A DNA stretch of 64,000 bases from Limnohabitans sp. TEGF004 (lineage in GTDB: Bacteria; Pseudomonadota; Gammaproteobacteria; Burkholderiales; Burkholderiaceae_C): NCBI RefSeq assembly GCF_027924965.1, contig NZ_AP027056.1, positions 1,860,001 to 1,924,000 of the forward strand, read 5' to 3'. The number at the start of each line of letters is the position of its first letter. Position 1 is the stretch's first letter. The translations under genes and the position numbers were made by a program. Positions 6,363 through 24,090 of the stretch are shown piece after piece. The notes below the pieces were generated by a model. The model saw only the letters and a list, made by a program, of their open reading frames with translations, had not been told where the DNA came from and did not search any database.

Positions 6363-6400
6363 TAATTTCTCCTTGGGTTAATTGGCTGATTTCAGGATGC

Positions 6401-7739: not shown

Positions 7740-8636
7740 ATGGAACTTCGACAACTCAGATACTTCCTCAGTCTTGCCGAAACTGAACATCTCACGCAGT
7801 CTGCACAAGCCCTGTTCATCACCCAATCCACACTCTCCCACGGTCTGCGTCAATTGGAAGATGAGTTGGGGACGGTCTTATTTGACCGAATTGGACGAGG
7901 TCTCAAAATTTCTCAGGCTGGATTGGCCTACAAAAGTTTTGTAGGCAGAGCAATACAAGAGCTAGAAGCAGGTCGCATGGCGCTCGCTCAATTGAATGGA
8001 CTGCAATCTGGGACATTGACCGTCGGCGTTATTCCCACGTTCATGGATACCCTTGTGCCTGCTGCTGTGGCGCACTTCAGTGCAAACTACCCTGGCATTC
8101 GTGTTTCGATCCGGGATCTTCGTGCTGATCTGATTGAAAAACACTTAGTCTCAGGACAACTCGATGTGGGTATTGCTTTCCATCCAACCCAACATGCAGA
8201 CATTGATGCCGAGCATTTGTTCAGCGAACAGTTACAGCTGCTCGTCAGCGTGGATCACCGTTTGGCCAAACGCCGTTCGCTGCGCATGCAAGATTTAAAA
8301 AACGTCCCGTTGTGTTTGCTGCCCAAAAGTTTTGCGACTCGGCGAATGCTCGATGAAGCTTTCAAATCAGCAAACATCTCACCCGAAATTCGTGTCGAGA
8401 TGGAATCCGTCAATGCGTTGATCGAGGCCTGCAAAACGGGAACGCTGGCCACGATCGTTCCTGAACGAGCCGCATCTATGAACCAAACGCAATTTCGGGC
8501 AATTTCATTACATGCCCCACAGCCTCTGCGACACGCTGGGATTTTGTGGCGCAAGGGCGCATCACGCTCAATGGCAGCCCAAGCCTTCGTGCAGGAACTG
8601 GGAAGTCAGACCCAAAGTGGCGGCAAGTTTAGTTAG
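7740..8636 (+). CDS. LysR-type regulator divergent from catB
   Basis: Transcriptional regulator of 298 residues. The N-terminal winged helix-turn-helix spans about residues 1-60 (MELRQLRYFLSLAETEHLTQ, then ITQSTLSHGLRQLEDELGTVLFDR without its usual Pro), followed by a periplasmic-binding-like effector domain (TVGVIPTFMDTLVPAAV onwards). It faces catB, so it probably controls the catB-pcaF operon, perhaps with muconate as inducer. The effector domain looks more CynR-like than BenM-like to me, so I give no gene symbol. Its 3' end overlaps the convergent second LysR gene by 8 bp. Confidence 0.85.
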   Translation: MELRQLRYFLSLAETEHLTQSAQALFITQSTLSHGLRQLEDELGTVLFDRIGRGLKISQAGLAYKSFVGRAIQELEAGRMALAQLNGLQSGTLTVGVIPTFMDTLVPAAVAHFSANYPGIRVSIRDLRADLIEKHLVSGQLDVGIAFHPTQHADIDAEHLFSEQLQLLVSVDHRLAKRRSLRMQDLKNVPLCLLPKSFATRRMLDEAFKSANISPEIRVEMESVNALIEACKTGTLATIVPERAASMNQTQFRAISLHAPQPLRHAGILWRKGASRSMAAQAFVQELGSQTQSGGKFS

Positions 8637-9633
8637 ACGACAGCTTTTGACTGCTTCCTTTTCGTCGACTGACTTTTGTAGACGTTGTGATGGGCACCTC
8701 TTTGCCTAACAGGGATGGGAATGCATTGTTCTCTAGGTCTAACCATGGCGGATTCTCTGCATACATTTCCACGATCAGTTCTTTGATAGCAGCGATATAC
8801 CAAGAATCGTCATTGAGACGATGACTCAAGATGATCGGAGAAGTCGCACGCTCATCATCTATGACGCGATACACCAGATCGGACCTGACCCGAGCCGCTG
8901 CAGGAATAATGCACACCCCCATTTCTGATGCCACCAAACCCAGAGCGGCTTGTATCTCACGAACTTCGTGAATTTCACCGAGCTGAATGCCTTGGTCATG
9001 AACCAAGCTCAAGACGTGGTCTGCATAACTTGGCCGTGGATCCTTGGGGAAAACAATCAGATTCTGATTGACCAACTCCTTCAGACTGATCCTGCCGCGT
9101 GCCTTCGCCAAGGGAGAACTTGGCGGCAAGGCAAGAACCAGACGCTCCTCCCTTAAAACCACGCGAGCCACTGACGTGTCGCCAGTTCGGATCCGCCCGA
9201 ATCCCAAGTCGATACGCCCTGATTTCAGCTCCGCGATCTGATGCACCGAACTCAGATCGACCAAGTGAATGTCTGTTTCGGGGTAACGCTTGCGAAACAT
9301 GCGAATCAGCATAGGAAGGCCGCCGTACAAAGTCGATGCGACATAGGCAATTGAAATGGATTGGCGTCGATCTTGACCAACGCGTTTGGCACCCGCTTTC
9401 ATTTGCTCGACCCGATGAAGCACCTGCAAGGCTTCTTCGTAAAAAACGCGCCCCGCGTCGGTCAAGCGCAAAGGCCTGCTGCTGCGTTGAATCAACAGGA
9501 CACCGAGCTCCTCCTCAAGGAGCTGAATCTGTCGACTCAGTGGTGGCTGTGCAATGTGCATTTGCTCAGCTGCACGCGTGAAGTTCTTGGTCGTGGCAAC
9601 TGCTACGAAATAACGTAATTGACGAAGATCCAT
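8629..9633 (-). CDS. BenM/CatM/CatR-type LysR regulator
   Basis: LysR activator of 334 residues. The helix-turn-helix region (RAAEQMHIAQPPLSRQIQLL) and effector-domain segments (SIAYVASTLYGGLPMLIRMF; EIQAALGLVASEMGVCIIPA) closely resemble, from memory, BenM and CatM of Acinetobacter, which respond to benzoate and cis,cis-muconate. It is divergent from catA-benABCD across a 238-bp gap holding two BenM-like boxes, which supports control of that operon and of itself. A charged, Ser/Lys-rich tail (about the last 25 residues) extends beyond the usual family end. Whether it is functionally BenM or CatR cannot be decided from sequence. Confidence 0.87.
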   Translation of the reverse strand: MDLRQLRYFVAVATTKNFTRAAEQMHIAQPPLSRQIQLLEEELGVLLIQRSSRPLRLTDAGRVFYEEALQVLHRVEQMKAGAKRVGQDRRQSISIAYVASTLYGGLPMLIRMFRKRYPETDIHLVDLSSVHQIAELKSGRIDLGFGRIRTGDTSVARVVLREERLVLALPPSSPLAKARGRISLKELVNQNLIVFPKDPRPSYADHVLSLVHDQGIQLGEIHEVREIQAALGLVASEMGVCIIPAAARVRSDLVYRVIDDERATSPIILSHRLNDDSWYIAAIKELIVEMYAENPPWLDLENNAFPSLLGKEVPITTSTKVSRRKGSSQKLSSN

Positions 9634-9871: not shown

Positions 9872-10807
9872 ATGACCGTTCAAATTTTCAAAACAAATGA
9901 AGTTCAAGATTTTTTAAAGATAGCCAGTGGCCTGACACAAACAGGCGGCAATCCACGCACCAAAACCATCATTCATCGCATCTTGTCTGACCTGTTCAAG
10001 GCCATCGAAGACTTGGACATCACATCGGATGAATACTGGGCCGGCGTTGCTTACCTGAATCAGCTTGGCGCACGCAGCGAGGCAGGCTTGTTGTCTCCTG
10101 GTTTGGGACTGGACCGCTATTTCGACATGCGCATGGACGCCGAAGACGCAGCACTTGGCTTGACCGATGGCACACCACGTGCGATCGAAGGACCTCTTTA
10201 CGTCGCTGGTGCGCCTGTCGTTCATGGCTTTACACGATTAGATGATGGCAGCGATACATCAGGTAAAACTCTCATCATGCACGGCACTGTGTATGGTGCA
10301 GATGGCAAGCCTGTGTCGAACGCATCTGTTGAAGTCTGGCACGCCAACACCAAGGGGTTCTATTCTCACTTTGATCCTACTGGCGAGCAAAAGGCCTTCA
10401 ACATGCGCCGCACCATCATGACCGATGCACAGGGTCGTTATAAGTTCCAGAGCATCGTGCCAGTGGGATATGGCTGCCCACCCGACGGTCCAACTCAGGC
10501 GTTGCTGAATCAGTTGGGTCGTCATGGCAATCGTCCTGCGCACATCCACTTCTTTGTCACAGCAGATGGCCACCGCAAGTTGACAACACAAATCAACATT
10601 GATGGTGACCCATTGGTGAATGATGATTTCGCGTACGCAACACGAGACGGCTTGGTTCCCCCAGTTGTTGAACACGCGGACGAGGCCAGCATCAAAGCGC
10701 ATGGTCTGAGTGGCCCATTCTGTGAAATCAAATTCGACATGACGCTGAGCCCCTTGGTCAATGGCTCAGATAACCAGATCGTTGAGCGCCCTCGTCTAGC
10801 AGCCTGA
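9872..10807 (+). CDS. catA: Catechol 1,2-dioxygenase
   Basis: Intradiol Fe(III) dioxygenase cleaving catechol to cis,cis-muconate; 311 residues, normal for the family. The iron ligands fall exactly at the classical positions Tyr164 (GFYSHFD), Tyr200 ([12 protein letters not shown]), His224 and His226 (RPAHIHFF). The N-terminal helical dimerisation/lipid-binding region precedes the catalytic domain. The start is supported by an AGGAGA site 6 bp upstream. It is the first gene of the catA-benABCD run, whereas many bacteria place catA with catBC. Confidence 0.95.
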
Positions 10808-10818: not shown

Positions 10819-10890
10819 GGTGGGCCGAATGACTTTCATTCGGCACCACCAGGCATGACGACAGACGAAAAACCGCAACCTCAGTTGCGG
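10819..10890 (+). promoter_or_regulatory. Two RNA hairpins in the catA-benA spacer
   Basis: Hairpin one (10819-10850) has arms GGTGGGCCGAATGA and TCATTCGGCACCACC around a 3-nt loop, with one extra base in the right arm. Hairpin two (10873-10890) is a perfect CCGCAAC-CTCA-GTTGCGG stem. Neither has a U tract, so they are more likely processing or stability elements, or weak attenuators, than simple terminators. Their presence argues that benA starts at 10921, not at the ATG at 10855. Confidence 0.55.
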
Positions 10891-10920
10891 CGGACGCCCC
10901 TACCCAAAGGAAACACACCC

Positions 10921-12282
10921 ATGAATACGAACGTATCCGTCGACAAATATGCCGACGTGGAAAACTTATTGAACAACGCCTTGCAAGACGATCCTGAAAA
11001 CGGCGTTTTTCGTTGCCGTCGCGATATTTTTACGGACGCGGATCTCTTTGAACTCGAGATGAAACACATCTTCGAAGGCAACTGGATTTACTTGGCGCAT
11101 GAAAGCCAAATCCCAGAGATCAACGACTACTTCACCACCTACATCGGCCGACAGCCAATCGTCATCACTCGTACCAAAGATGGCAGCTTGAACGCTGTCA
11201 TCAATGCATGTGCGCACAGAGGCGCGATGCTGTGCCGCCGCAAGCACGGCAACAAAGGCAGCTTCACCTGCCCGTTTCATGGATGGACGTTCGCAAACAC
11301 AGGCAAGTTGCTGAAGGTCAAAGATGAGAAGACCACGGAATATCCCATCCAATTCAACACCAATGGCTCGCATGACCTGAAGAAGGTGGCTCGCTTTGAA
11401 AGCTACAAAGGCTTCTTGTTTGGTAGCTTGAACGCTGATGTGCAACCCCTGCAAGAGTTTTTAGGTGAAACGAAAGTGGTGATCGACCAAATCGTTGACC
11501 AAGCCGCTGAAGGACTGGAAGTTTTGCGTGGTAGCTCGACTTACACCTACGACGGCAATTGGAAACTTCAAATGGAAAACGGCAGCGACGGTTACCACGT
11601 GAGCTCTGTCCATTGGAATTACGCCGCAACGATGGGACGACGCAAAGATGGTGGCACCAAGGCTGTCGATGCAAACGGCTGGAGCAAGAGCGTGGGTGGT
11701 GTGTACGGATTTGAAAACGGTCACATCCTGCTGTGGACGAAGACCATGAACCCAGAAGTGCGTCCTGTGTATGACCATCGTGCAGAGCTCAAAGATCGCC
11801 TCGGAGAAGCCAAGGCCGATTTGATCGTGAACCAAACACGCAACCTTTGCCTTTACCCGAATGTGTATTTGATGGATCAATTTTCTACACAGATCCGAGT
11901 CACGCGCCCCATCAGTGTGGATAAGACAGAAGTCACGATTTACTGTTTCGCACCTAAGGGTGAAAGTGCTGAAAGCCGCGCCACCCGCATTCGTCAGTAC
12001 GAGGACTTCTTCAACGTCTCGGGCATGGGAACAGCGGATGACCTCGAGGAATTTCGCTCTTGCCAAACAGGTTATGCCGCCAAGGCTGCACCTTGGAATG
12101 ATTTGAGTCGCGGCGCGCCGCTTTGGGTGCATGGTCCAGATGAAAACGCCCGACAAATGGGTATGACCCCACTGGTCAGCGGCGGTCGAAGTGAAGACGA
12201 AGGTCTGTTCGTTTGTCAACACAACTATTGGGCAGAGAGCATGCAAAAAGCGCTGACCAAAGAGCGAGAAGGAGCAAAGTGA
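10921..12282 (+). CDS. benA: Benzoate 1,2-dioxygenase, large (alpha) subunit
   Basis: Rieske oxygenase alpha subunit, 453 residues, dihydroxylating benzoate to the 1,2-cis-diol. The Rieske [2Fe-2S] ligands are Cys97/His99 (CAHRG) and Cys117/His120 (CPFHGW). The mononuclear iron site includes His226 and His231 in the DGYHVSSVH segment. The start at 10921 is chosen for the AAAGGAAA site upstream and the alignment-like N-terminus; an ATG at 10855 would put two hairpins in coding sequence. The stop overlaps the benB start (TGATG). Anthranilate and toluate dioxygenases are relatives; benD and catA favour benzoate. Confidence 0.92.
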
Positions 12283-12773
12283 TGAGCCAAAAATTCAGCG
12301 ATGTTTGCGGCTTTTTATTCAAAGAAGCGCGCCACCTTGACGACCGCGAGTGGGATGCTTGGTTGGACATGTATGCCCCAGAGGTTCAATACTGGATGCC
12401 ATCTTGGGACGATGACGATCAGTTGACAGAGGATCCACAAAGTGAGATTTCACTGATTTACTACCCCAACCGCAATGGTTTGGAGGATCGTGTGTTTCGC
12501 ATCAAGACGGAGCGCTCTAGTGCCTCCATGCCCGAACCACGCACCAATCACATGATCAGCAATGTGGAGATCTTGGCGGACCGTGGTGACTCACTGGACG
12601 TCAGATACAACTTCCACACGTTGAGCCACCGCTACAAGGTCACAGATCATTTTTTCGGCGCCATCTTTTTAACGCTAAAGGTGATGGGCGACGACAGTTT
12701 CCAAATCACGCGCAAAAAGATTGTCTTAAAGAATGACTACATCAGCCAAGTCATTGACATCTATCACATCTGA
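12282..12773 (+). CDS. benB: Benzoate 1,2-dioxygenase, small (beta) subunit
   Basis: Beta subunit, 163 residues, a cone-shaped structural partner of BenA in the oxygenase hexamer. Typical stretches are FLFKEARHLDDREWDAWLDM near the N-terminus and SLIYYPNRNGLEDRVFRI in the middle. The ATG at 12282 overlaps the benA TGA and follows GAAGGAG; an open extension to 12213 lies inside benA and is not needed. Confidence 0.92.
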   Translation: MSQKFSDVCGFLFKEARHLDDREWDAWLDMYAPEVQYWMPSWDDDDQLTEDPQSEISLIYYPNRNGLEDRVFRIKTERSSASMPEPRTNHMISNVEILADRGDSLDVRYNFHTLSHRYKVTDHFFGAIFLTLKVMGDDSFQITRKKIVLKNDYISQVIDIYHI

Positions 12774-12792
12774 GATCAGAAGGGTTCACAAG

Positions 12793-13818
12793 ATGACCAG
12801 CTATCGAATAGCCTTGAACTTCGAGGATGGTGTCACACGCTTCATAGAGTGTGGCGCAGACGAAAAAGTGCTCGACAGTGCTTTCAGAAATCGCATCAAT
12901 TTGCCCATGGACTGCTCGGACGGTGTGTGTGGCACATGCAAATGCCGAGCAGAAAGTGGCTCGTATGACATGGGCGATGAATACATTGATGAAGCCTTGA
13001 CACAAGATGAAGCCAATGAGGGCTTGGTTCTGACATGTCAAATGGTGCCTAGTTCAGATTGCGTCATCTCGGTGCCTGTGCCCTCCACTGCTTGTAAAAC
13101 TGGCACGGCGCAGTTCTCTGCCACATTGGCTGAGGTCTCCTCGCTTGGCGATGCTGCCTATGAGTTGGTCTTAGATGCCCCATCGGATGCACCGGACTTC
13201 TTACCAGGTCAATACGTCAACATCGGCGTTCCAGGCAGCGACCAACACCGGTCTTACTCGTTCAGTTCAGCACCGGGAAGTGCCCGCATGACTTTCTTGG
13301 TCAAGCAAGTTCCTGAGGGGCTGATGAGCGGCTGGTTGAATCGCGCCCAGTCAGGCGAGACGCTTGACATCAAAGGGCCCATGGGCAGCTTTTATCTGCG
13401 AACTCCCACTCGACCCTTGCTCTTTCTAGCAGGTGGCACTGGGCTTGCGCCGTTTTTGTCAATGCTAGAAGTCCTTGAGAAACAAGCGCACGCTCTGCCG
13501 ATTCACTTGATCTATGGCGTGACACGCGATCAAGATTTAGTCATGGTCGATCGTTTAGTGAATTTTGCTAACCGACTGCCCAACTTCACCTTCACCACCT
13601 GTGTGGCCGACCCGCAAACAGGCCATGACAAACAAGGATTTGTCACGCAATACATGTCACCAGATGTCTTGCATGACGGCGATGTCGATGTGTATTTGTG
13701 CGGTCCGCCTCCCATGGTGGATGCCGTACAAAAACATTTCAAAGACATCGCCTTGAGTCCCGTGAGTTTTCATTATGAAAAGTTCACGCCCAATGCGACC
13801 ACCCCCATTTCGGAGTAA
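12793..13818 (+). CDS. benC: Benzoate dioxygenase reductase component
   Basis: Electron-transfer flavoprotein, 341 residues, passing electrons from NADH to BenAB. An N-terminal plant-type [2Fe-2S] domain has Cys41, Cys46, Cys49 (CSDGVCGTC) and Cys82; an FAD-binding domain follows with RSYSFSSAPG, then an NAD domain with GGTGLAPF and CGPPPMVDAV. The ATG at 12793 is chosen because it begins the ferredoxin domain directly; an earlier ATG at 12733 would overlap benB. Confidence 0.93.
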   Translation: MTSYRIALNFEDGVTRFIECGADEKVLDSAFRNRINLPMDCSDGVCGTCKCRAESGSYDMGDEYIDEALTQDEANEGLVLTCQMVPSSDCVISVPVPSTACKTGTAQFSATLAEVSSLGDAAYELVLDAPSDAPDFLPGQYVNIGVPGSDQHRSYSFSSAPGSARMTFLVKQVPEGLMSGWLNRAQSGETLDIKGPMGSFYLRTPTRPLLFLAGGTGLAPFLSMLEVLEKQAHALPIHLIYGVTRDQDLVMVDRLVNFANRLPNFTFTTCVADPQTGHDKQGFVTQYMSPDVLHDGDVDVYLCGPPPMVDAVQKHFKDIALSPVSFHYEKFTPNATTPISE

Positions 13819-13823
13819 CCCAT

Positions 13824-14600
13824 ATGAACAAAGAATTTGCAGGCAAAGTCATGCTCATCACAGGCGCTGCACAAGGCATTGGCCAACGTGTTGCTGAGCT
13901 TGCAGCAGCGCAAGGCGCCCGCTTAGCGCTGGTTGACAGATCGCCTCTGGTTCAAGAATTACGCGAGCAGCTGTCAGCCATCACTGAGGTCATTGCCATT
14001 GAAGCAGACCTTGAGCAATTTGAGGGCGCAGAACAAGCAGCAGAGAGAACGCATAAGGCGTTTGGTCGGATCGACATTTTGGTGAACAACATCGGTGGCA
14101 CCATCTGGACCAAACCATTTGAGCACTACGACCCTAAACAGATCGAAGCTGAAGTACGACGCTCGCTATTTCCCACCTTGTGGAGCTGTCGCGCAGTGTT
14201 GCCCTACATGCTGAAGAAAAAAAAGGGCGCCATTGTGAACGTGTCCTCCATCGCGACACGCAGCGTCAACCGCGTTCCGTACGGCTCAGCGAAGGGTGGT
14301 GTCAATGCATTGACTGCATGCTTGGCATTCGAAAACGGTGAGCGTGGTATTCGCGTCAACGCGATAGCACCTGGTGGAACAGAAGCACCCCCACGTCGCA
14401 TTCCACGCAACACGTCAAATCTGGGTCGCAAAGATAAAGCTTGGTACCAAGAAATTGTCGATCAAACGATCTCTAGCACCTTGATGAAGCGTTACGGAAC
14501 GCTCGACGAACAAGCAGAAGCCATCCTCTTTTTGGCTTCAGACCGTTCGTCTTACATCACTGGCACGGTTCTGCCGGTCGGTGGTGGCGACCAAGGTTGA
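13824..14600 (+). CDS. benD: 1,2-dihydroxycyclohexa-3,5-diene-1-carboxylate dehydrogenase
   Basis: Short-chain dehydrogenase, 258 residues, oxidising the benzoate cis-diol with decarboxylation to catechol. The cofactor motif is TGAAQGIG (13-20), NNIGG follows near residue 88, and the catalytic pair is Tyr153/Lys157 (YGSAK) with an upstream SS at 141-142. It starts 5 bp after benC, completing the benABCD set. Confidence 0.93.
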   Translation: MNKEFAGKVMLITGAAQGIGQRVAELAAAQGARLALVDRSPLVQELREQLSAITEVIAIEADLEQFEGAEQAAERTHKAFGRIDILVNNIGGTIWTKPFEHYDPKQIEAEVRRSLFPTLWSCRAVLPYMLKKKKGAIVNVSSIATRSVNRVPYGSAKGGVNALTACLAFENGERGIRVNAIAPGGTEAPPRRIPRNTSNLGRKDKAWYQEIVDQTISSTLMKRYGTLDEQAEAILFLASDRSSYITGTVLPVGGGDQG

Positions 14601-14679: not shown

Positions 14680-15852
14680 ATGAATATCTCGCAATTTTCT
14701 CGCCGTGCTGCACTCGCCGCAGCGGTTTCATTCACCATTCCAATGGCCATGGCACAGACCTCACAAAAACTCAAGGTTGGTTTCATGTTGCCCGCCACTG
14801 GCACTTTTGCCGCATTGGGCACCGCTATTGAAAATGGTTTCAGGCTTTACCTTGCTGAACAAGGTGGAAAGATCGGTGGGCGTGAAGTTGAATTTTTCAA
14901 AGTCGACGACGAGTCAGATCCATCTAAAGCGATTGACAACGTCAACAAACTGATCAAACGCGACAACGTGGACGTTTTGATCGGCAGCGTGCACTCAGGC
15001 GTCGCAATGGCCATGGCTCGCGTCGCCAAGGGCACCGGCACCTTGATGATCAATCCCAACGGTGGCGCTGACGCCGTCACAGGCTCCATGTGTGCGGTGA
15101 ACATTTTCCGCAGCAGCTTTAGCAATTGGCAGCCGGGTTTCGCGATTGGTCAAGCCATGGCGGCTAAAGGCCATAAAACCGCAGCCACCATCACTTGGAA
15201 ATACGCCGCTGGTGATGAGATGGCCAAAGGCTTCAAAGAAGGCTTTGAGAAATCGGGTGGAAAGGTAACCAAAGAATTGACGCTGCCCTTCCCGAACGTT
15301 GAATTCCAATCCCTGTTGACTGAAATTGCCTCTGCCAAACCTGATGCTGTTTTCTCCTTCTTTGCTGGCGGCGCTGCCGTGAAGTTTGTCAAAGACTATG
15401 ACGGTGCTGGCCTGAAGAAAAACATCCCTCTCTTTGGCACTGGCTTTCTGACCGATGGCACATTGGAAGCTCAGGGTGCATCTGCTGAAGGTGTACTGAC
15501 ATCGCTGCATTACGCGGACAACTTAAACACCCCACGTGACAACGCTTTCCGTCTTGCCTATGTGAAGACCTTCAAAATGCAGCCTGATGTGTATGCCGTC
15601 CAAGGCTACGACGCTGCGCAAATGTTGGGCATCGGTTTGACTGCGGTCAAGGGTGACGCAAAAAATACGGCAGGCTTTGCCGCTGCACTGACCAAAGCCA
15701 CCATCGACAGTCCGCGTGGGAAATTCACGATTTCCAAAGCGCACAACCCCATTCAAGACATGTACTTGCGCCAAGTTTCCGGCAAGGAAAACAAGGTGAT
15801 TGGCATTGCCAGCAAAGCGCTTGAAGATCCTGCAACGGGTTGCCGCCTGTAA
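14680..15852 (+). CDS. LivK-type ABC transporter substrate-binding protein
   Basis: Periplasmic receptor, 390 residues, of the branched-chain amino acid (HAAT) importer family. An N-terminal export signal carries twin arginines (FSRRAALAAAVSF) and ends after AMAQ; type I periplasmic binding folds follow (KVGFMLPATGTFAALG). An AGGAGA site precedes the ATG. Location 79 bp after benD and before livHMGF genes suggests uptake of benzoate or a benzoyl derivative such as hippurate, which is inference. The RR pair could indicate Tat export but is not conclusive. Confidence 0.87.
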   Translation: MNISQFSRRAALAAAVSFTIPMAMAQTSQKLKVGFMLPATGTFAALGTAIENGFRLYLAEQGGKIGGREVEFFKVDDESDPSKAIDNVNKLIKRDNVDVLIGSVHSGVAMAMARVAKGTGTLMINPNGGADAVTGSMCAVNIFRSSFSNWQPGFAIGQAMAAKGHKTAATITWKYAAGDEMAKGFKEGFEKSGGKVTKELTLPFPNVEFQSLLTEIASAKPDAVFSFFAGGAAVKFVKDYDGAGLKKNIPLFGTGFLTDGTLEAQGASAEGVLTSLHYADNLNTPRDNAFRLAYVKTFKMQPDVYAVQGYDAAQMLGIGLTAVKGDAKNTAGFAAALTKATIDSPRGKFTISKAHNPIQDMYLRQVSGKENKVIGIASKALEDPATGCRL

Positions 15853-15873
15853 TTTCGGCCCTTCGTCAACACC

Positions 15874-15899
15874 CGTCCTTTCCAACCGTGGAAAGGACG
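15874..15899 (+). other. Perfect hairpin between binding-protein and permease genes
   Basis: CGTCCTTTCC-N6-GGAAAGGACG, a perfect 10-bp stem with a 6-nt loop and no U tract, in the 62-bp gap after the substrate-binding gene. Such intra-operon stems are known to protect upstream binding-protein mRNA, giving more receptor than membrane subunits. The right arm also carries a GGAAAGGA stretch about 15 bp upstream of the permease start. Confidence 0.6.
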
Positions 15900-15914
15900 T
15901 AACGCATCAGCTCT

Positions 15915-16799
15915 ATGGATCTCACAAACTTTCTCATTCAGTGTCTGAATGCGGTGCAGTACGGCTTATTGCTGTTTCTGGTCGCTTCAGGTTTGACACT
16001 CATCTTCGGCATCATGGGCGTGATCAACCTAGCGCACGGTAGCTTTTACATGATTGGTGCCTACATGGCCTTCGCGTTGTCACCCATCGTGAGCGGCACC
16101 TTTGGCGGAGGGTTCTTTGCGGTTCTATGTGTCGGCGTGGTGCTGTCCGTTCTGTTGGGTTATTTTTTGGAATGGGCGTTTTACAGCTACCTCTACGACC
16201 GTGAACACTTACAGCAAGTGCTGATGACATACGGGCTGATTCTCGTGTTTGAGGAACTGCGCAGTTTGCTGGTGGGTGATGATGTGTATGGCGTTCAGGT
16301 GCCAGACCTCTTAGCGGGCTCACTGCAACTGGGCGAGGTCATGACCTATCCCATTTATCGACTGTTCGTATCAGCCGTCTGCTTAGGGTTGGCATTGGCC
16401 ATGTTTTTCGTGTTCACACGAACCCGACTGGGCATGATGATTCGCGCGGGCGCAAGCAACCGCGAAATGGTGCAATCGCTAGGCATTGACATCCAGTTTT
16501 TATACCGCGTGGTGTTCGCTGCGGGTGTGGCCATTGCAGCGTTGGCCGGCATGGTGGCCGCGCCAGTGTCATCGGTGTATCCGGGCATGGGCAACCAAGT
16601 GTTGATCATCTGCTTTGTCGTGGTGGTCATTGGTGGCATTGGATCTATCAAAGGTGCACTGGCTGCGGCTCTGATGATTGGCGTGGTGGACACCTTTGGC
16701 AAGGTGCTATTACCCCAAGCCTCTGGCGTATTGATTTATCTCTTGATGGCTGGGATCTTGTTATGGAAACCAGATGGCCTTTTTAAAGTGGGTGGATGA
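15915..16799 (+). CDS. LivH-type ABC transporter permease
   Basis: Inner-membrane permease, 294 residues, with about eight hydrophobic helices and the LivH-family opening GLTLIFGIMGVINLAHGSFY near residue 28 and the conserved VVVIGGIGSIKGALAAALMIG near residue 235. It forms the membrane pore with the LivM-type protein encoded immediately downstream. Confidence 0.9.
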   Translation: MDLTNFLIQCLNAVQYGLLLFLVASGLTLIFGIMGVINLAHGSFYMIGAYMAFALSPIVSGTFGGGFFAVLCVGVVLSVLLGYFLEWAFYSYLYDREHLQQVLMTYGLILVFEELRSLLVGDDVYGVQVPDLLAGSLQLGEVMTYPIYRLFVSAVCLGLALAMFFVFTRTRLGMMIRAGASNREMVQSLGIDIQFLYRVVFAAGVAIAALAGMVAAPVSSVYPGMGNQVLIICFVVVVIGGIGSIKGALAAALMIGVVDTFGKVLLPQASGVLIYLLMAGILLWKPDGLFKVGG

Positions 16800-16800
16800 A

Positions 16801-17820
16801 ATGACTGACAACAAAAACCCAAAACTCCCTTTTGTCGTGCTGTTTTTTGCATCGCTTGCGTGCTTTCCATGGCTGAGCGGCAATTTCGGCATTGATCTGA
16901 TGAGCAAGATCATGATCTACGCCATCTTGGCACTCAGCCTTGAGTTGATTGTGGGAGGCGCTGGCTTGGTGTGTTTTGGCCAAGCCGCTTTCTTTGGCAT
17001 TGGTGCTTACGTAGCAGTTCGCGCGTCGTCAGACACTGAAGCCGCATCGCTGGTGTGGTTGTTGCCAGCGGCTGTGCTGGCGGCAGGACTCTATGCCTTT
17101 GTGGTCGGCTCCTTGTCGTTACGTACCAAGGGCGCGTACTTCATCATGGTGACGTTGGCATTTGCCCAGATGGCCTACTTTGTGGTGCATGACACCCCAC
17201 TGGGTGGCGGGTCAGATGGTATTTATCTCAACATCAAGCCTGTCTTGGGAGATCTCATCAACCTTGACTCTCCAACGTCGATGTATTTCTTCACCTTGGC
17301 TTGTCTCTTTCTGGTGTTTGTATTTTTAGCGGTGCTTTTACGCTCCCGATTTGGCAGAGCCTTGGCGGGTATTCGGGTCAATGAGCAACGCATGCTCGCC
17401 ACTGGTTTTTCAACCTACACCTATAAGTTGGCAGCGTTCACCCTCTCTGGCGCCATTGCGGGGTTGGCAGGCTTTTTGTTTGCAGTGAAAGACGGTTTTG
17501 TGAACCCCGAGATGATGAGCTGGCACTTGTCAGGTGCGGTCTTGGTGATGATCATTCTGGGCGGCCTTGGCCATCTGCGCGGTGCACTTGTTGGCGCCTT
17601 TGCATTTGCGCTGTTGCAAGAATTTTTCAAATCAGAGTCTGTGTTTGGCGAGTTCGCCAAGCACTGGCACTTAGGACTAGGCCTGGCCATCATTGCCACT
17701 GTGGCACTTTTACCCAATGGGCTGGTCAGTCTTCCGGGGCAACTGCGAACCCGTTTGGTTGGAGCGCAGTCAGATGACTCAGGGTTGGGTGACCTGACCA
17801 CCACGAAAGGTACATCATGA
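16801..17820 (+). CDS. LivM-type ABC transporter permease
   Basis: Second membrane subunit, 339 residues from the chosen start, with multiple hydrophobic helices and family segments LIVGGAGLVCFGQAAFFGIG and VMIILGGLGHLRGALVGAF. The ATG at 16801 lies one base after the livH-type stop; an ATG at 16774 inside livH is possible but adds nine non-hydrophobic residues. Its stop overlaps the next ATG (ATGA). Confidence 0.88.
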   Translation: MTDNKNPKLPFVVLFFASLACFPWLSGNFGIDLMSKIMIYAILALSLELIVGGAGLVCFGQAAFFGIGAYVAVRASSDTEAASLVWLLPAAVLAAGLYAFVVGSLSLRTKGAYFIMVTLAFAQMAYFVVHDTPLGGGSDGIYLNIKPVLGDLINLDSPTSMYFFTLACLFLVFVFLAVLLRSRFGRALAGIRVNEQRMLATGFSTYTYKLAAFTLSGAIAGLAGFLFAVKDGFVNPEMMSWHLSGAVLVMIILGGLGHLRGALVGAFAFALLQEFFKSESVFGEFAKHWHLGLGLAIIATVALLPNGLVSLPGQLRTRLVGAQSDDSGLGDLTTTKGTS

Positions 17821-18572
17821 AGCCTTCAGAAGTTTTGCTACGCGGCAGCCACATCACACGACGTTGGGGAGGTCTGGTTGCGGTCAACGATGTCTCCATC
17901 GAATTGACACGTGGCACTGTGCATGCCGTCATCGGCACAAACGGTGCAGGAAAGTCCACGCTGATCAACATGTTGTCTGGCGAGATTCCAGCCTCCAGCG
18001 GCTCAGTGCATTTGATGGGTGAAGATGTGACGCAGTGGACGCAAGCGCGTCGTGCGCGTGCAGGCCTGGGTAGAAGCTACCAAAGAAACACGATCTACCC
18101 AACATTCACGGTCTACGAGAACTGCCGATTGGCTGCCCAAGCCCAATCACAAAAACCTTGGCTTTGGTGGCAATCAGCCAATGCATGCCCAGTGACCCAG
18201 GCTGCAGCGCACGATGCCGCCAGTCGTGCGGGTTTAGAACACATGCTCGATCGTCAAGCCAACATGTTGTCACATGGTCAAAAGCGTCAACTTGAAATCG
18301 CGATGTGCTTAGCGACTCAGCCACAAGTTCTGCTGCTTGATGAGCCACTTGCGGGCATGGGCGCAGAAGAAACAGACCGAATGCTGAAGCTACTCGACAC
18401 CCTGCGTGCTGAGCACGCCATTTTGTTGGTAGAGCACGACATGGATGCAGTGTTTCGCATTGCCGATGTCATCACGGTGATGGTCAACGGCGTCAAGATC
18501 GCTTCAGGTGACGCGGCCTTTATTCGTCAGAGCCCTGAAGTGCGCAACGCTTACCTTGGAGAAGGACACTGA
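17817..18572 (+). CDS. LivG-type ABC transporter ATPase
   Basis: Cytosolic ATP-binding subunit, 251 residues: Walker A GTNGAGKST at 40-48, signature-like LSHGQKRQLEI (the usual Gly pair replaced by HG), Walker B VLLLDEPLAG, and H-loop LLVEHDMD. It overlaps the livM-type gene by ATGA and is followed one base later by the livF-type gene. Confidence 0.9.
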   Translation: MKPSEVLLRGSHITRRWGGLVAVNDVSIELTRGTVHAVIGTNGAGKSTLINMLSGEIPASSGSVHLMGEDVTQWTQARRARAGLGRSYQRNTIYPTFTVYENCRLAAQAQSQKPWLWWQSANACPVTQAAAHDAASRAGLEHMLDRQANMLSHGQKRQLEIAMCLATQPQVLLLDEPLAGMGAEETDRMLKLLDTLRAEHAILLVEHDMDAVFRIADVITVMVNGVKIASGDAAFIRQSPEVRNAYLGEGH

Positions 18573-18573
18573 C

Positions 18574-19290
18574 ATGACAACCAACGACTATTTGATCGAC
18601 GCTAAAGGCTTGCATGCCTGGTATGGGTCAAGCCATGTGCTGCATGGCATTGATATCAAGATTCAGCGCAGCCAGACCATGGGCCTACTCGGGCGAAATG
18701 GCATGGGTAAAAGCACACTGATCCGAACGCTATTGGGTCATCTCACGCAGCGCGAGGGATCGATCACGCTGTTTGGTGAAGATGCCTCCCGATTCAAACC
18801 CCACCAAGTCGCACGTTTGGGCGTTGCCTATGTGCCTGAAGGCCGCGGCATCTTTCCAAATCTGACGGTGCGAGAAAATTTATTGATGTCTGCACGCCCC
18901 GGAACCGATGGCCGAAAAGACTGGACCTTTGACCGCGTCATGCAGACTTTTCCACGTCTCACAGAGCGACTAAGCAATATGGGTAACCAGCTATCAGGCG
19001 GCGAGCAACAAATGCTATCTATTGGACGGGCCTTGATGACGCACCCTGACTTGATTGTTCTGGATGAAGCCACGGAAGGGTTGGCACCCTTGATCGTGAA
19101 TGAAATTTGGAACGTCATTGCCAACATCCGGGACAGTGGCATTGCGACGCTCATTGTTGACCGCGACTACCGTCGTGTGTTGGCTCACAGCGATCAAGCG
19201 ATCGTGCTGCAAAAAGGTTTAGTGGCACTTGCAGGACCGTCTAGCCAAGTGGCAGTTGACGATACCTTACCCAAATTACTTGGCGTTTAA
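18574..19290 (+). CDS. LivF-type ABC transporter ATPase
   Basis: Second ATPase, 238 residues: Walker A GRNGMGKST at 40-48, signature LSGGEQQML, Walker B LIVLDEATEGLAP. The switch region reads LIVDRDYRRVL where LivF proteins usually have a VEQN-type sequence. The ATG at 18574, one base after the preceding stop and after GGAGAAGG, is preferred to an earlier in-frame ATG at 18508 inside livG. Confidence 0.9.
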   Translation: MTTNDYLIDAKGLHAWYGSSHVLHGIDIKIQRSQTMGLLGRNGMGKSTLIRTLLGHLTQREGSITLFGEDASRFKPHQVARLGVAYVPEGRGIFPNLTVRENLLMSARPGTDGRKDWTFDRVMQTFPRLTERLSNMGNQLSGGEQQMLSIGRALMTHPDLIVLDEATEGLAPLIVNEIWNVIANIRDSGIATLIVDRDYRRVLAHSDQAIVLQKGLVALAGPSSQVAVDDTLPKLLGV

Positions 19291-19355: not shown

Positions 19356-20240
19356 CTAATGCCCGCTCAATATTTCTTTTGTAGCCGTGCGTAAATAGCT
19401 GCACAAAGGTGACTCACTGCGGGACCTGAGCGAGACCCAGCCAAACTTTGCCGTTGCATTCAACTCCGGCGACATCTTGAGGGCCACTAAGTCTGGTCCT
19501 AAAGATCGAACAGCGACCAAGATGGCATCTGTCGATCGCACCACATCCAGCAAACTTGAAATTTCATCGCAACGCACATTGACCAGAACATCAGGATGTG
19601 CATCTGCACCATAACGATCCACCAGGATGCGGGCGACCTCATCGCTGAGAGGTGTTGAGGCAACAGGATAGTCCTTGAGTCTTGCTAACGTGACTTGACG
19701 CGCTTTGCTCAAAGGATGGCCTTTGCGACACATGAATGCACCTGGCAGTTCGCACAAACTTTCCACCTCCAGGTCACTGGACGGACTCAAAGACCGAATG
19801 TCCAACACCAGCGCATCAAGATGCCGATCACGCAAAGCCTGAACCAACAGAGTTGTATGACCCCTTGCAATTTCTAGATGGGCTTTTGGAAATTCACTGG
19901 CAACGTACTTCATCAAAGGCGACGTCAGCAAGGCGCCTGGACCAGACCCCAAACCGACTCTGACCTTACCCGTTTGACCACTGAGCAACTGATGGCTGCT
20001 TTGCTTCAAGTTGGTAGCACGGTCAACTAAGTCTCGTGCCTGCACATAGAAGTACTGCCCAAATGCAGTGAGTTCAATTTTTCGCCTCACACGGTCAAAG
20101 AGTTGGTGACCAAACTCGTCCTCTATGGACTTGATGCTTCGACTCAGCGCAGGCTGACTCAAGTGCAATTTGACAGCAGACTTGCTGAACGAAGCGGTAT
20201 TGGCTAGCTCTAAAAAATGTCGCAATTGCACCAAAGTCAT
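19356..20240 (-). CDS. LysR-type regulator divergent from Bug-amidohydrolase pair
   Basis: Regulator of 294 residues from the ATG at 20240: helix-turn-helix about residues 15-40 (SFSKSAVKLHLSQPALSRSI), then an effector-binding domain (KVRVGLGSGPGALL onwards). Five extra codons upstream to 20255 are open but start inside the divergent control region. It faces the Bug and M20 genes and is their likely regulator; the inducer is unknown. Confidence 0.83.
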   Translation of the reverse strand: MTLVQLRHFLELANTASFSKSAVKLHLSQPALSRSIKSIEDEFGHQLFDRVRRKIELTAFGQYFYVQARDLVDRATNLKQSSHQLLSGQTGKVRVGLGSGPGALLTSPLMKYVASEFPKAHLEIARGHTTLLVQALRDRHLDALVLDIRSLSPSSDLEVESLCELPGAFMCRKGHPLSKARQVTLARLKDYPVASTPLSDEVARILVDRYGADAHPDVLVNVRCDEISSLLDVVRSTDAILVAVRSLGPDLVALKMSPELNATAKFGWVSLRSRSESPLCSYLRTATKEILSGH

Positions 20241-20252
20241 CGCGGCTCCAAT

Positions 20253-20293
20253 CAATGCATTTAAATTATGGATTCATTAATTATTATGCATTG
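20253..20293. promoter_or_regulatory. Candidate operator, LysR / Bug intergenic region
   Basis: Perfect 8-bp arms CAATGCAT (20253-20260) and ATGCATTG (20286-20293) separated by 25 very A+T-rich bases, in the gap between the divergent LysR and Bug genes. Symmetry and location suit a regulator site; binding is inferred. Confidence 0.45.
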
Positions 20294-20347: not shown

Positions 20348-21343
20348 ATGACATTCAATCGCCGTACAACTCTGAATCTACTCACAGTGCTATGCAGCCT
20401 GTTTGTTACAGCATCAGCCCAAGCAGATGCTTACCCAAGCAAACCCGTCACGCTGTTGGTGCCCTACCCAGCAGGCGGCTTGTCTGATGTGATTGCACGC
20501 ACGGTCAACAACACATTGTCCAAGAACCTGGGACAAACTGTGATCGTCGACAACTTGGGAGGTGCCAGTGGTTCCATCGCTGCACAAAAAGTGTTGAACG
20601 CACCGGCCGATGGTCAGATCATTTTTCAAGGCTCGCCGAACGAATTGATCTTGGCGCCTTTGGCTATTTCTGCTGTGAAGTTCAAGAGCGAAGACTTCCG
20701 TTTGGTGCAGATGATCGCGACAGCACAAATTGCATTTTTGGCACGCAAAGATTTGCCCGTGAACTCTGTCGATGAGTTTTTGGTCTACGCTAAAAAAGAA
20801 GCACAAGCCGGTCGCCCCATCACCTACGCCAGCGTTGGGCCTGGCAGTTTTTATCACCTGCTGGGTGAGCACTTGTCCAAAGTGACCAACATTCCCATGA
20901 CGCATGTGCCCTACAAAGGCGCGGCACCTGCAAACCAAGATTTGATGGGCAGCCAAGTCGATATCTTTTTGGCCCCCTTTGGTAAGGCTTATGAGGAGTT
21001 GCAAAAGCAAGGCAAGCTCAAAGTGCTCGCCATGCTCAACAGCGAGCGCCTAGAGTCTGTCAAAGACTACCCCGCGATCAGCGAAAGCAAGTCACTCAAG
21101 AATTTCACCTTCAACATTTGGACAGGCTACTTTGTAAAAAAAGACACGCCTGAACCTGTGGTTCAAGTCATTCACAAAGCGATCACTGATTCGCTGTCAG
21201 ATCCTGCCGTCAGAAGTGGTCTGGCCGCCAATAGCCAATTGGTTGCCAAGCCTTTGTCCTTGAAGGCTGTGGATAAAGCCTATGTGGATGGCACGGCACA
21301 ATTCCGCGCCATCGCGAAATCGATCGACTTGCAGCCCCAGTGA
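20348..21343 (+). CDS. Bug/TctC-family periplasmic solute-binding protein
   Basis: 331 residues from the ATG at 20348, which follows AAGGAGA and opens a signal peptide (MTFNRRTTLNLLTVLCSLFV, cleavage near AQA-DA). The mature protein begins YPSKPVTLLVPYPAGGLSD, the Bug-family signature, with HVPYKGAAPANQDLMG later. It is separated from the M20 amidohydrolase gene by one base, implying that the bound ligand is, or yields, the hydrolase substrate. No TctAB genes are nearby. Confidence 0.86.
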   Translation: MTFNRRTTLNLLTVLCSLFVTASAQADAYPSKPVTLLVPYPAGGLSDVIARTVNNTLSKNLGQTVIVDNLGGASGSIAAQKVLNAPADGQIIFQGSPNELILAPLAISAVKFKSEDFRLVQMIATAQIAFLARKDLPVNSVDEFLVYAKKEAQAGRPITYASVGPGSFYHLLGEHLSKVTNIPMTHVPYKGAAPANQDLMGSQVDIFLAPFGKAYEELQKQGKLKVLAMLNSERLESVKDYPAISESKSLKNFTFNIWTGYFVKKDTPEPVVQVIHKAITDSLSDPAVRSGLAANSQLVAKPLSLKAVDKAYVDGTAQFRAIAKSIDLQPQ

Positions 21344-21344
21344 T

Positions 21345-22517
21345 ATGACCTACTTGCGTGATGCACTGACCGAGCGAGTGGGTGAATTCATCCAACTGCG
21401 CCGCGACATCCACCGCCACCCCGAGTTGGCATTTGAAGAGCACCGCACGTCTGACTTGGTCGCTGCCAAGCTAGAGGGCTGGGGCTATGCTGTTCACCGT
21501 GGTTTGGGTGGCACAGGTGTGGTGGGCACATTGACGCGAGGGCAAGGCCGTCGCTTAGGCCTGCGCGCGGACATGGATGCTCTGCCCATTCAAGAAGCGA
21601 CAGGGGCTGAATGGTCGAGTGTGAAACCCGGCGTGATGCATGCATGCGGCCACGATGGTCATACCGCTATGCTCTTGGCTGCTGCCAAATCGATTGCGCA
21701 AGATGCGTCATTCACAGGCACTTTGAACTTGATTTTTCAGCCGGCCGAAGAAGGTGGTGGTGGCGCGGTGCGCATGATCGAAGACGGCTTGTTTGAGCAC
21801 CATCCGTGCGATGCCGTTTTTGCCATGCACAACATGCCAGGCACACCCGTGGGGCACTTTGTGTTTCGTGACGGTGCAGCCATGGCCTCGAGCGATTACG
21901 TGACCATCCGTGTGCACGGCACCGGTGGTCATGGGGCTATGCCCCACAGATCTGCAGACCCCTTAGTGGCGGCATCGTCCATCGTCATGGCGCTGCAAAC
22001 CATCGTGTCGCGCAACGTCGACCCGCTCGATACGGCCGTCGTCACGGTGGGCGCATTGCATGCAGGTCAAGCCAACAACGTCATTCCTGCGTTGGCCACC
22101 CTAGAGCTCAGCGTGCGATCCCTCAACCCAGCCGTGCGATGTTTGCTTGAGCAACGCATCAAAGCTTTGGTGGTGGCTCAAGCCGAGAGTTTCGGCGTGA
22201 GTGCCGATATCGATTGGCGTCCCGGCTACTGTGTGCTGGTGAACTCAAAATCTGAAACAGACTTTGCACGACAAGTGGCGCTTGATTTAGTAGGCTCCGA
22301 ACGCGTGACCTTGCAAGGCCCAGCCTTGACAGGCAGTGAAGACTTTGCGTTCATGCTTGAAAAAATACCGGGCAGCTATTTACTCATTGGCAACGGTGAT
22401 GCAGACTCAGCTGGTGCGTGCATGGTGCACAACCCAGGCTACGATTTCAATGACGACAACATTGCCACTGGCGCTGCTTATTGGGTCGCGTTGGTAGAAA
22501 GATTTCTGGCAAACTGA
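21345..22517 (+). CDS. M20-family amidohydrolase, hippurate hydrolase type
   Basis: Zinc-dependent amidohydrolase of 390 residues, peptidase M20D type, whose members split N-acyl or N-aroyl amino acids (hippurate to benzoate plus glycine is the model reaction). Metal-binding Cys101 and His103 lie in MHACGHDGH, Glu135/136 in PAEEGGGG, His162 in AMHNMPG, and the C-terminal His in MVHNPGYDFND. The dimerisation domain includes GTGGHGAMPH. The ATG at 21345 begins one base after the Bug stop. Hippurate as substrate is inferred from the adjacent ben/cat genes and the glycine riboswitch downstream; other N-acyl amino acids are possible. Confidence 0.85.
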   Translation: MTYLRDALTERVGEFIQLRRDIHRHPELAFEEHRTSDLVAAKLEGWGYAVHRGLGGTGVVGTLTRGQGRRLGLRADMDALPIQEATGAEWSSVKPGVMHACGHDGHTAMLLAAAKSIAQDASFTGTLNLIFQPAEEGGGGAVRMIEDGLFEHHPCDAVFAMHNMPGTPVGHFVFRDGAAMASSDYVTIRVHGTGGHGAMPHRSADPLVAASSIVMALQTIVSRNVDPLDTAVVTVGALHAGQANNVIPALATLELSVRSLNPAVRCLLEQRIKALVVAQAESFGVSADIDWRPGYCVLVNSKSETDFARQVALDLVGSERVTLQGPALTGSEDFAFMLEKIPGSYLLIGNGDADSAGACMVHNPGYDFNDDNIATGAAYWVALVERFLAN

Positions 22518-22547
22518 TATTTGATTTTTACTCGACCTTGTGTCGAC

Positions 22548-22747
22548 ATGTCATCGGGAGAGACTGCCAACGCCCAAGCGTGCTGGGCAGCGCCGAAGGA
22601 GCAACCGCCCCGGAAACTCTCAGGCAAACGGACCGGTGACATGACCCAACTCTGAAGAGCTGCTGACGCATTCGTCCGTCAGTGCACCGAAGGAGCAAGC
22701 GATGGCCGTCACACGCCACCGTGAATCTCTCAGGTCCAAAAACAGAG
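22548..22747 (+). promoter_or_regulatory. Tandem glycine riboswitch
   Basis: Two consecutive glycine-aptamer motifs. Aptamer 1 (22548-22642) has closing stem ATGTCA/TGACAT, a CGGGAGAGAC opening, GCCGAAGGAGCAA and GGAAACTCTCAGGCAAA. Aptamer 2 (22650-22747) closes with CTCTG/CAGAG and repeats ACCGAAGGAGCAAGC and GAATCTCTCAGGTCCAAAA. These are the conserved cores of the gcvT-class riboswitch; the tandem form binds two glycines. The downstream 68 nt contain a GCTTTG/CAAAGC stem (22753-22783) without a U tract, so the expression platform may act on translation. It controls the dehydrogenase gene at 22816, presumably switching it on when glycine is abundant. Confidence 0.93.
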
Positions 22748-22815
22748 GGGGCGCTTTGTGTATGCGTGTTTGCATGCCAAAGCTCAACCCTTGACGTTTT
22801 GAAAGTTCCTTCATC

Positions 22816-24090
22816 ATGAAAACAATCGCAGTTATTGGCGGCGGCATCACGGGTGTCACAACAGCCTATGCCTTGGCCAAACGCGGCTTTGCCGTGACCT
22901 TGTTTGAACGCCATCGCTATGCTGCGATGGAAACCTCGTTTGCGAACGGCGGGCAACTGTCTGCATCCAACGCAGAAGTTTGGACGCATTGGTCCACCAT
23001 CCTCAAAGGCCTCAAGTGGATGCTCAAAAGTGACGCGCCGCTGCTGGTCAACCCAGCACCTACATGGCACAAACTCTCTTGGTTTGCTGAGTTCATTGCA
23101 GCCATGCCCCATTACGAACGCAACACCATTGAAACAGCGCGTTTGGCAGTGGCCGCGCGTCAACACTTGTTTGCTTGGGCGCAAGAAGAAGGCATTGATT
23201 TCGACCTGAAGAAAGAAGGCATCCTGCACATCTACCGTGACAAAAAAGGGTTTGACCATGCAGGCAAAGTGTCAGTCATGCTGGCCAAGGGTGGACTTCC
23301 TCGCCATGCCGTGACCCCAGAGGAAATGAAAGCCATCGAGCCAACCTTGGCTGGTACTTACTACGGTGGCTACTTCACGGAAAGTGATGCCACGGGCGAC
23401 ATTCACAAATTCACCAACGGATTAGCCGCTGCGGCAGCACGACTGGGTGTGCACACGCTGTATGGCCAAGATGTGACTTCGGTTCAAAGCAACGGACAAC
23501 AAGCCGTCATCACCGTGGCACAAGAGGATGCGTCCCCCTGTGTTCATACCTTTGACAGCGTGGTCGTGTGTGCAGGTGTTGCCAGCCGAAACTTTGCGGC
23601 ACAGCTGGGAGACCGCGTGAACATTTACCCCGTCAAAGGCTACTCCATCACAGTCAACCTCAACGACGAAGAAAGCCAAATGGGCGCACCCAATGTGAGC
23701 CTGCTGGATGACGAAACCAAATTGGTCACCAGCCGCTTAGGCCTCAACCGCTTCCGCGTAGCGGGTACTGCCGAATTCAATGGCATCGACCGTGACATTC
23801 GTGCGGACCGCATTCGTCCCTTGGTTGAGTGGGTTGAACAATGCTTCCCCCGCATCAACACCCGCTCGGTGGTGCCATGGGCTGGCTTGCGACCCATGAT
23901 GCCCAATATGATGCCGCGCGTAGGCCAGGGCAAAGCCGCCAACGTGTTCTACAACACCGGTCACGGGCACTTGGGCTGGACGCTGTCTGCCGTGACCGCT
24001 GAGCTGGTATCAGACACCATCGTCAAAGCATCAGCTCAAACGTCGGTGCAAGCGATGAATTTGCACGCAGCCACTGCTGGCAATCTGTAA
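22816..24090 (+). CDS. dadA: FAD-dependent D-amino acid dehydrogenase, glycine-riboswitch controlled
   Basis: DadA-like flavoprotein of 424 residues with an N-terminal dinucleotide site GGGITG (8-13) and the DAO-type C-terminal FAD segment GHGHLGWTLS. DadA enzymes oxidise D-amino acids to 2-oxo acids, passing electrons to the respiratory chain; relatives act on glycine or sarcosine. The glycine riboswitch directly upstream suggests that glycine is a physiological substrate or signal here. Fold and cofactor are visible; substrate is inferred. Confidence 0.85.
   Translation: MKTIAVIGGGITGVTTAYALAKRGFAVTLFERHRYAAMETSFANGGQLSASNAEVWTHWSTILKGLKWMLKSDAPLLVNPAPTWHKLSWFAEFIAAMPHYERNTIETARLAVAARQHLFAWAQEEGIDFDLKKEGILHIYRDKKGFDHAGKVSVMLAKGGLPRHAVTPEEMKAIEPTLAGTYYGGYFTESDATGDIHKFTNGLAAAAARLGVHTLYGQDVTSVQSNGQQAVITVAQEDASPCVHTFDSVVVCAGVASRNFAAQLGDRVNIYPVKGYSITVNLNDEESQMGAPNVSLLDDETKLVTSRLGLNRFRVAGTAEFNGIDRDIRADRIRPLVEWVEQCFPRINTRSVVPWAGLRPMMPNMMPRVGQGKAANVFYNTGHGHLGWTLSAVTAELVSDTIVKASAQTSVQAMNLHAATAGNL

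Follow-up and report, generated by a model that had tools for sequence, protein, structure and literature searches.

A tandem glycine riboswitch between M20D amidohydrolase and dadA-like genes in Limnohabitans: a candidate module for N-acylglycine catabolism

Introduction

Glycine riboswitches control genes of glycine metabolism, transport, serine, and malate synthase, according to PMC3766115 and PMC2211319. Among the closest described systems are the RF00504 switches of gcv operons, such as that of gcvT in the β-proteobacterium Neisseria gonorrhoeae (PMC13104608): this translational ON switch has two aptamers in tandem, acts on a catabolic gene, and contains a helix that would mask the ribosome-binding site when glycine is absent. 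In the present work, we analyzed a locus within 64,000 nucleotides of Limnohabitans sp. TEGF004 (contig NZ_AP027056.1, positions 1,860,001 to 1,924,000; hereafter the window), in which a tandem glycine riboswitch separates the gene of an M20D amidohydrolase from that of a DadA-like flavoenzyme. The three features of the gonococcal switch can also be read in the window. Compared with the RF00504 switches of gcv genes, it differs in its target, a DadA-like flavoenzyme, in starting where an amidohydrolase gene ends, and in having benzoate genes nearby.

Hippurate (N-benzoylglycine) is a common animal waste product. Judging from sequence comparison, we consider it fairly probable that the locus is a catabolic module for N-acylglycines, most likely hippurate, in which the released glycine is sensed by the switch. 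The module is built from known parts, in an arrangement that we did not find described in the literature searched. No paper was found joining glycine riboswitches with hippurate, benzoate, or D-amino acid dehydrogenase, or hippurate with Polynucleobacter, in a search that left most subscription papers uncovered; the supplements of PMC3766115 and PMC2211319 may list dadA. A glycine riboswitch and an amino acid oxidase co-occurred only in work on a Fusarium protein, and none of the listed papers that mention riboswitches together with hippurate dealt with such a system, judging by title and opening of the abstract.

Results

The riboswitch joins an amidohydrolase gene and a flavoenzyme gene

The core of the locus consists of the following features, all on the plus strand.

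20348..21343, plus strand: TctC/Bug periplasmic receptor (PF03401)
21345..22517, plus strand: M20D amidohydrolase (TIGR01891, PF01546, PF07687)
22545..22645, plus strand: glycine riboswitch aptamer 1 (RF00504, 66 bits, E 1.8e-11)
22642..22755, plus strand: glycine riboswitch aptamer 2 (RF00504, 51.6 bits)
22737..22801, plus strand: alternative helix between the 3' shoulder of aptamer 2 (22737-22743) and the edge of the Shine-Dalgarno region of dadA (22796-22801), from pair counts and partner permutation over relatives
22816..24090, plus strand: DadA/glycine-oxidase-like flavin adenine dinucleotide (FAD) enzyme (NF009074, 735 bits)

The original prediction, made from the window alone, had proposed a hippurate module of amidohydrolase, tandem riboswitch, and DadA-like gene beside benzoate genes and an importer, and its parts withstood the profile searches. 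Both aptamers exceed the RF00504 gathering score of 32; the second was missing from the list of the initial window scan and reached its 51.6 bits when the whole genome was searched, which confirms the tandem arrangement. These are the only RF00504 matches of the window genome (G000, 2.77 Mb, estimated completeness 100%), making this the sole glycine riboswitch found there. The amidohydrolase scores 354 bits against a TIGR01891 cut-off of 153.75, with PF01546 and PF07687 also matching. The predicted module began at 20348, which had to be corrected as to content: 20348-21343 is the Bug gene, and the amidohydrolase ATG lies 1 nt past the Bug stop codon. The prediction had overlooked this receptor, the neighboring LysR gene, and how closely the riboswitch follows M20D.

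By profile (TIGR01891), the amidohydrolase belongs to the same family as hippurate hydrolases. Residues C101, H103, E135/E136, H162, and H362, which we take to be the metal-ligand positions, are invariant in nine aligned rows, eight of them distinct proteins. Its solved relatives are ILL2-like proteins, N-acyl-glutamine aminoacylase, and YxeP; none of the five is named a hippurate hydrolase, and the comparison included no characterized enzyme of that kind. Hippurate hydrolase is its predicted role, from genomic association. Among plasmid records, 277 matched the protein, 9 of them at 60-80% identity. The best PDB relatives of the Bug receptor are BugD and terephthalate-binding proteins.

The flavoenzyme scores 735 bits in the NF009074/PRK12409 family, over the cut-off of 494. 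When the family profile was compared with the PDB, glycine oxidases made up seven of the nine matches at E <= 1e-8. The enzyme shares the DAO family with the glycine oxidase ThiO, the type of its nearest solved relatives, and stays below the ThiO cut-off (TIGR02352, 141.7 versus 250.8 bits); it is a putative oxidase or dehydrogenase.

Linkage of M20D with riboswitch-dadA is recurrent

From the named collection, 80 of 589 DadA loci were kept and scanned with a riboswitch model built from 20 aptamers. A riboswitch lies just upstream of dadA in 76 of the 80; L164, L186, and L200 are without one, and L174 is incomplete there. M20D of at least 62% identity occurs within 6 kb of DadA in 25 of these loci by hand count; 9 of the other 55 are incomplete upstream. 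The two genes are found in several arrangements: with M20D upstream and co-directional (the window and many others), divergent (L187), convergent downstream (L192), or placed before Bug (G173), and with a porin between M20D and riboswitch-dadA in L224, L229, and G759. Among 35 loci chosen for M20D upstream on the same strand, some of them near-copies, 33 have 7-31 nt between its stop codon and aptamer 1; the gap is longer in L368 (211 nt) and L297 (92 nt). DadA stands directly behind M20D with no riboswitch found between them in L344 (G612) and L127 (G040).

In a tree of 105 DadA rows, of which 45 are linked to M20D and 60 are not, the linkage label changes 17 times, and at least 9 of these changes are forced by supported branches. 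The G616 proteins are 94% (DadA) and only 68% (M20D) identical to those of the window; the pairing therefore seems to have outlived the replacement of one partner. In G150 (L297, 8908-11576), a glycine riboswitch match 92 nt behind M20D is followed by a DadA-like stretch of only 39% identity (10365-11576), which suggests separate assembly, possibly an independent one with a different flavoenzyme. The frame L297:10331-11650 was wrong for the G150 DadA and matched no family. Across the order, M20D was found in 42 places in 35 of 399 genomes. DadA is nearby in the window, G554, G173, and G150; the other 38 places showed no DadA of at least 50% identity in the stretch examined.

Two observations stand apart. 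In the Limnohabitans loci L111, L113, L114, L116-L118, and L123, DadA lies between xanthine dehydrogenase-like (XdhC-like) genes and a urate-oxidase-like and molybdate-transport-like set (identities by eye), and in some of these loci a LysR-Bug-M20D cassette separates XdhC from riboswitch-dadA. The genome G759 has a second glycine riboswitch (L368:18289-18486, minus strand), which precedes a Porin_4 gene located between M20D and riboswitch-dadA; aptamer 1 of this switch scores 61.2 bits and its weak aptamer 2 25.9 bits, below the gathering score. A porin would be an unusual riboswitch target.

Some M20D-linked units lie near benzoate pathways of two unrelated kinds

Further features of the window are given below.

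1636..2838, minus strand: pcaF, 3-oxoadipyl-CoA thiolase (TIGR02430, 709.7 bits, cut-off 597)
2891-3535, minus strand: pcaJ, 3-oxoadipate CoA-transferase (TIGR02428/TIGR02429 pair for pcaJ and pcaI, above cut-off)
3547-4263, minus strand: pcaI, 3-oxoadipate CoA-transferase (same pair, above cut-off)
4306..5076, minus strand: pcaD-like enol-lactonase (TIGR02427, 187 bits, below cut-off 255.85; NF051487, 300.5, below 430)
5087..6178, minus strand: Bug2, second Bug/TctC-like receptor (tblastn; start of the open reading frame probably overlaps catC)
6081..6374, minus strand: catC-like muconolactone isomerase (tblastn, 56% over 98 amino acids to a TIGR03221 protein)
6401..7561, minus strand: catB, muconate cycloisomerase (TIGR02534, 443 bits, cut-off 335)
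8629..9633, minus strand: BenM/CatM-like LysR regulator (closest in NCBIfam to CatM and BenM, under their cut-offs)
9872..10807, plus strand: catA, catechol 1,2-dioxygenase (TIGR02439, 464 bits, cut-off 392)
10855..14600, plus strand: benA, benB, benC, benD (TIGR03229, TIGR03232, NF040810, NF040811)
14680..19290, plus strand: five-gene Liv/Urt-type ATP-binding cassette (ABC) importer (all matches below equivalog cut-offs)
19356..20255, minus strand: divergent LysR regulator (PF00126, PF03466)
24288-26198, minus strand: phenol 2-monooxygenase family gene (PRK08294), directly downstream of dadA
26323-26763, plus strand: MarR regulator, downstream of dadA past the PRK08294 gene

The gene order is pcaF, pcaJ, pcaI, pcaD, Bug2, catC, and catB leftward, a LysR gene rightward, catM leftward, catA, benABCD, and the ABC importer rightward, LysR leftward, and Bug, M20D, riboswitch, and dadA rightward. 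All genes of the catechol pathway of benzoate (benABCD, catA, catB, catC, pcaIJ, pcaF, pcaD) are present, with benB, benC, and benD above their cut-offs, benA just under its own (773.5 versus 780.95 bits), and pcaD clearly below. Relatives of the importer hold the same position in G606 (livK 74%, livF 66%) and G009 (livK 76%, livF 67%). A relative of the LysR regulator at 19356..20255 adjoins M20D in many loci, and we regard this protein as a candidate sensor of the conjugate. Bug2 has no NCBIfam match; by tblastn, a counterpart of 52-59% identity is present in six of seven Polynucleobacter clusters. In the close relative G009, the gene next downstream of dadA differs from that of the window.

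M20D was found in 7 of 151 Polynucleobacter genomes, and in all seven it is accompanied by DadA, a match to the riboswitch, and a nearby cat-ben-pca cluster, in at least two gene orders. One of them, G554 (a 2.05-Mb contig), reads catM, catB, catC, catA, benABCD, benE, pcaIJF, pcaD, MFS, Bug2, porin, LysR, Bug, M20D, riboswitch, and dadA over ~20 kb, with catM and LysR rightward and the other genes leftward. A pathway of the box (benzoyl-CoA) type occupies this place in other lineages. In the Limnohabitans genome G606, boxA, boxB, boxC, a BoxR-type regulator, 3,4-dehydroadipyl-CoA semialdehyde dehydrogenase, and benzoate-CoA ligase precede a livKHMGF-LysR-Bug-M20D-riboswitch-DadA run; in the metagenome-assembled genomes with L168 and L171, box genes follow M20D-riboswitch-DadA; and in L181, benzoate-CoA ligase follows DadA. 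Box genes also follow DadA in L215, which is incomplete upstream. The flanking pathways, unrelated to each other, are recognizable as ben/cat/pca or box; what differs here is the nearby putative conjugate-splitting front end and glycine-sensing back end.

Within 13 kb, ben/cat/box genes occur in 11 of 26 M20D-linked compared with 1 of 51 unlinked DadA loci (Fisher p 1.1e-5; like its variants below and the tests on the named collection, this test ignores relatedness). These are de-duplicated loci; 46 of 123 rows were without flank for one or both traits, and a short flank was allowed for positives and not for negatives. The difference persisted without the short-flank positives (8/23 versus 1/51, p 0.0002) and on further removal of three hand-set loci (5/20 versus 1/51, p 0.006). 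In the named collection, the counts are 6 of 25 linked and 1 of 55 unlinked loci (p 0.003), that one being L215, counted as unlinked although its upstream side is incomplete; without the nine loci incomplete upstream, they are 6/25 and 0/46 (p 0.001). Among 84 Limnohabitans genomes, a BoxB match, fragments counted, is present in 21 of 26 with M20D compared with 32 of 58 without (p 0.03). The window's own genome has ben genes instead of BoxB.

The leader carries a helix that could mask the dadA start region

Leaders of relatives share a segment, conserved along the 3' edge of aptamer 2, that is complementary to a segment ending in the dadA Shine-Dalgarno region. The four inner pairs of this anti-Shine-Dalgarno helix are formed in 82.5% of cells compared with 76.6% in shuffles, and 13 cells carry double changes compared with 6.1 (0 of 500 shuffles as high in either case). 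In a partner permutation covering 36 of 42 rows (34 unique pairs), for which the rule chose a wrong 3' segment in some rows, own partners had a mean score of 13.2, a value reached by 0 of 2000 permutations (10.4 +/- 0.39). When glycine binding was modeled, 10 of the 17 rows computed (of 18, without L235) gained more than 0.1 in accessibility of the start region; start codons were assigned by rule and are likely to be wrong for some rows. For the window leader, folding energy was unremarkable (z -0.52), and consensus scans for promoters (3 found versus 2.2 in shuffles) and terminators (5 versus 5.6) remained near chance.

The helix and P1 of aptamer 2 share bases; glycine binding should therefore free the dadA start region. 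These data suggest a translational ON switch in which the helix could mask the dadA Shine-Dalgarno region. Glycine binding and the resulting change in expression are predictions, for which the covariation of the helix is the observation made here. The ON direction agrees with the gonococcal gcvT switch and with the view, in PMC6944388, that glycine-degradation genes are upregulated by glycine.

Riboswitch-dadA is widespread and may compensate for a missing glycine cleavage system

Hosts of riboswitch-dadA include Cupriavidus, Comamonas, Polaromonas, Variovorax, Stutzerimonas, and Halomonas; DadA without riboswitch was seen in G033, G040, G048, G058, and G060. Of 150 genomes across the family, 25 have DadA orthologues (E <= 1e-150), 128 have GcvP over its cut-off, and 135 have glycine riboswitches. 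GcvP over its cut-off is found in 13 of 61 Limnohabitans genomes, many of the 61 being incomplete. Of these 61 genomes, 19 have riboswitch-DadA, and in 14 of the 19 no GcvP passes its cut-off (searches cross-read by hand). In the window genome, GcvP was not found by profile search and GcvT was not matched in full; a GCV_T-domain search returned one 347-amino acid frame with a partial match, presumably a YgfZ-like folate protein. The glycine cleavage system thus seems to be lost, so that in this genome glycine may be oxidized mainly by DadA.

Discussion

We propose the following sequence of events for the module. The Bug receptor would bind the conjugate, and M20D would split it, hippurate giving benzoate and glycine. 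Benzoate would enter the BenABCD/Cat/Pca route, or the box pathway in some relatives. Glycine would bind the tandem riboswitch that starts just past the M20D stop codon, breaking the helix that masks the dadA ribosome-binding site, and the DadA then made would oxidize it, with glyoxylate as the presumed product. Bug, M20D, and the riboswitch follow one another almost without gaps; the switch is therefore probably part of the Bug-M20D transcript, where it would act as a checkpoint that senses the product. An extended form, which we consider slightly less likely than not, is a two-signal gate: LysR would open Bug-M20D transcription on the conjugate, and the riboswitch on the same transcript would permit DadA only after glycine release. 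In this view, the unit arose by repeated assembly beside benzoate pathways of two unrelated kinds, and in the Polynucleobacter genome G759 a riboswitch of this type was also placed before an outer-membrane porin.

Several results weigh against a hippurate module. The original prediction had named the regular occurrence of riboswitch-dadA without hydrolase or benzoate genes as evidence against itself, and the neighborhood comparison found just this, as the unit is common without either: among the 80 named loci, 51 to 55 show no M20D, depending on the treatment of incomplete ends. Benzoate genes are missing near 15 of the 26 assessable linked loci, and several linked loci have a purine-catabolism-like neighborhood. 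An independent-pairs test on the DadA tree had no power (7 supported pairs; mean 1.5 same way, 0.0 opposite, 5.4 without difference; median p 1). Of the 38 order-wide M20D places without nearby DadA (G150 set aside), one (L337) lies by benzoate (box) genes. By family name, DadA is a D-amino acid dehydrogenase. Concerning the helix, pairs with changes on both sides (2 versus 1.6 in shuffles, 333 of 500) and further pair types (5 versus 4.0, 101 of 500) were not in excess, and among slid versions, all of which pair less, the +1 slide has as many double-change cells in fewer paired cells. The modeled opening of the start region is small in the window (0.51 versus 0.46), and accessibility fell in 3 of the 17 rows.

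Two stronger claims can thus be ruled out, namely that riboswitch-dadA is a hippurate-specific unit and that benzoate genes are its constant partner. Of the hippurate module first proposed, the recurrent joining of M20D with riboswitch-dadA and the enrichment of benzoate genes around the joined units stood, and the specificity did not. Riboswitch-dadA seems to be a general unit that was recruited to M20D.

The cassette might instead serve N-acylglycines generally, or other aroyl-glycines such as hydroxyhippurates and salicylurate, with benzoylglycine as only one substrate. M20D enzymes are broad in substrate, and both the linked loci lacking ben/box genes and the phenol 2-monooxygenase family gene downstream of dadA in the window would fit this. 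The aromatic genes that do lie beside the unit are those of benzoate pathways, in a search that covered benzoate, catechol, and oxoadipate genes and not hydroxybenzoate pathways, and we consider this explanation somewhat unlikely. It is unlikely that the parts are neighbors without shared purpose, riboswitch-dadA being a stand-alone glycine detoxifier and Bug-M20D a general scavenging cassette for N-acyl-amino acids that came to lie beside it by chance. Most named loci, and those of Stutzerimonas and Halomonas, do have riboswitch-dadA without M20D, and M20D orthologues exist without DadA nearby; chance, however, poorly explains a linkage that recurs in several orders and orientations with repeated changes on the DadA tree, that is flanked by benzoate genes of two unrelated kinds, that seems to have been kept in G616 through the replacement of one partner, and that in G612 and G040 places DadA right behind M20D with no riboswitch found. 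That DadA acts on a D-amino acid freed by M20D, with glycine merely a regulatory signal, would suit its NCBIfam name but is quite unlikely given the glycine-class riboswitch before dadA in 76 of 80 named loci and nearest solved relatives that are mainly glycine oxidases.

Together, these data present riboswitch-dadA as a portable unit of glycine catabolism, which in the window's genome apparently replaces the glycine cleavage system. If the N-acylglycine module is real, this would be, as far as the searched literature shows, the first riboswitch known to report on one of the two products of a conjugate, with the other channeled into a separate pathway, and it would predict the use of hippurate by freshwater bacteria of two genera, Limnohabitans and Polynucleobacter.

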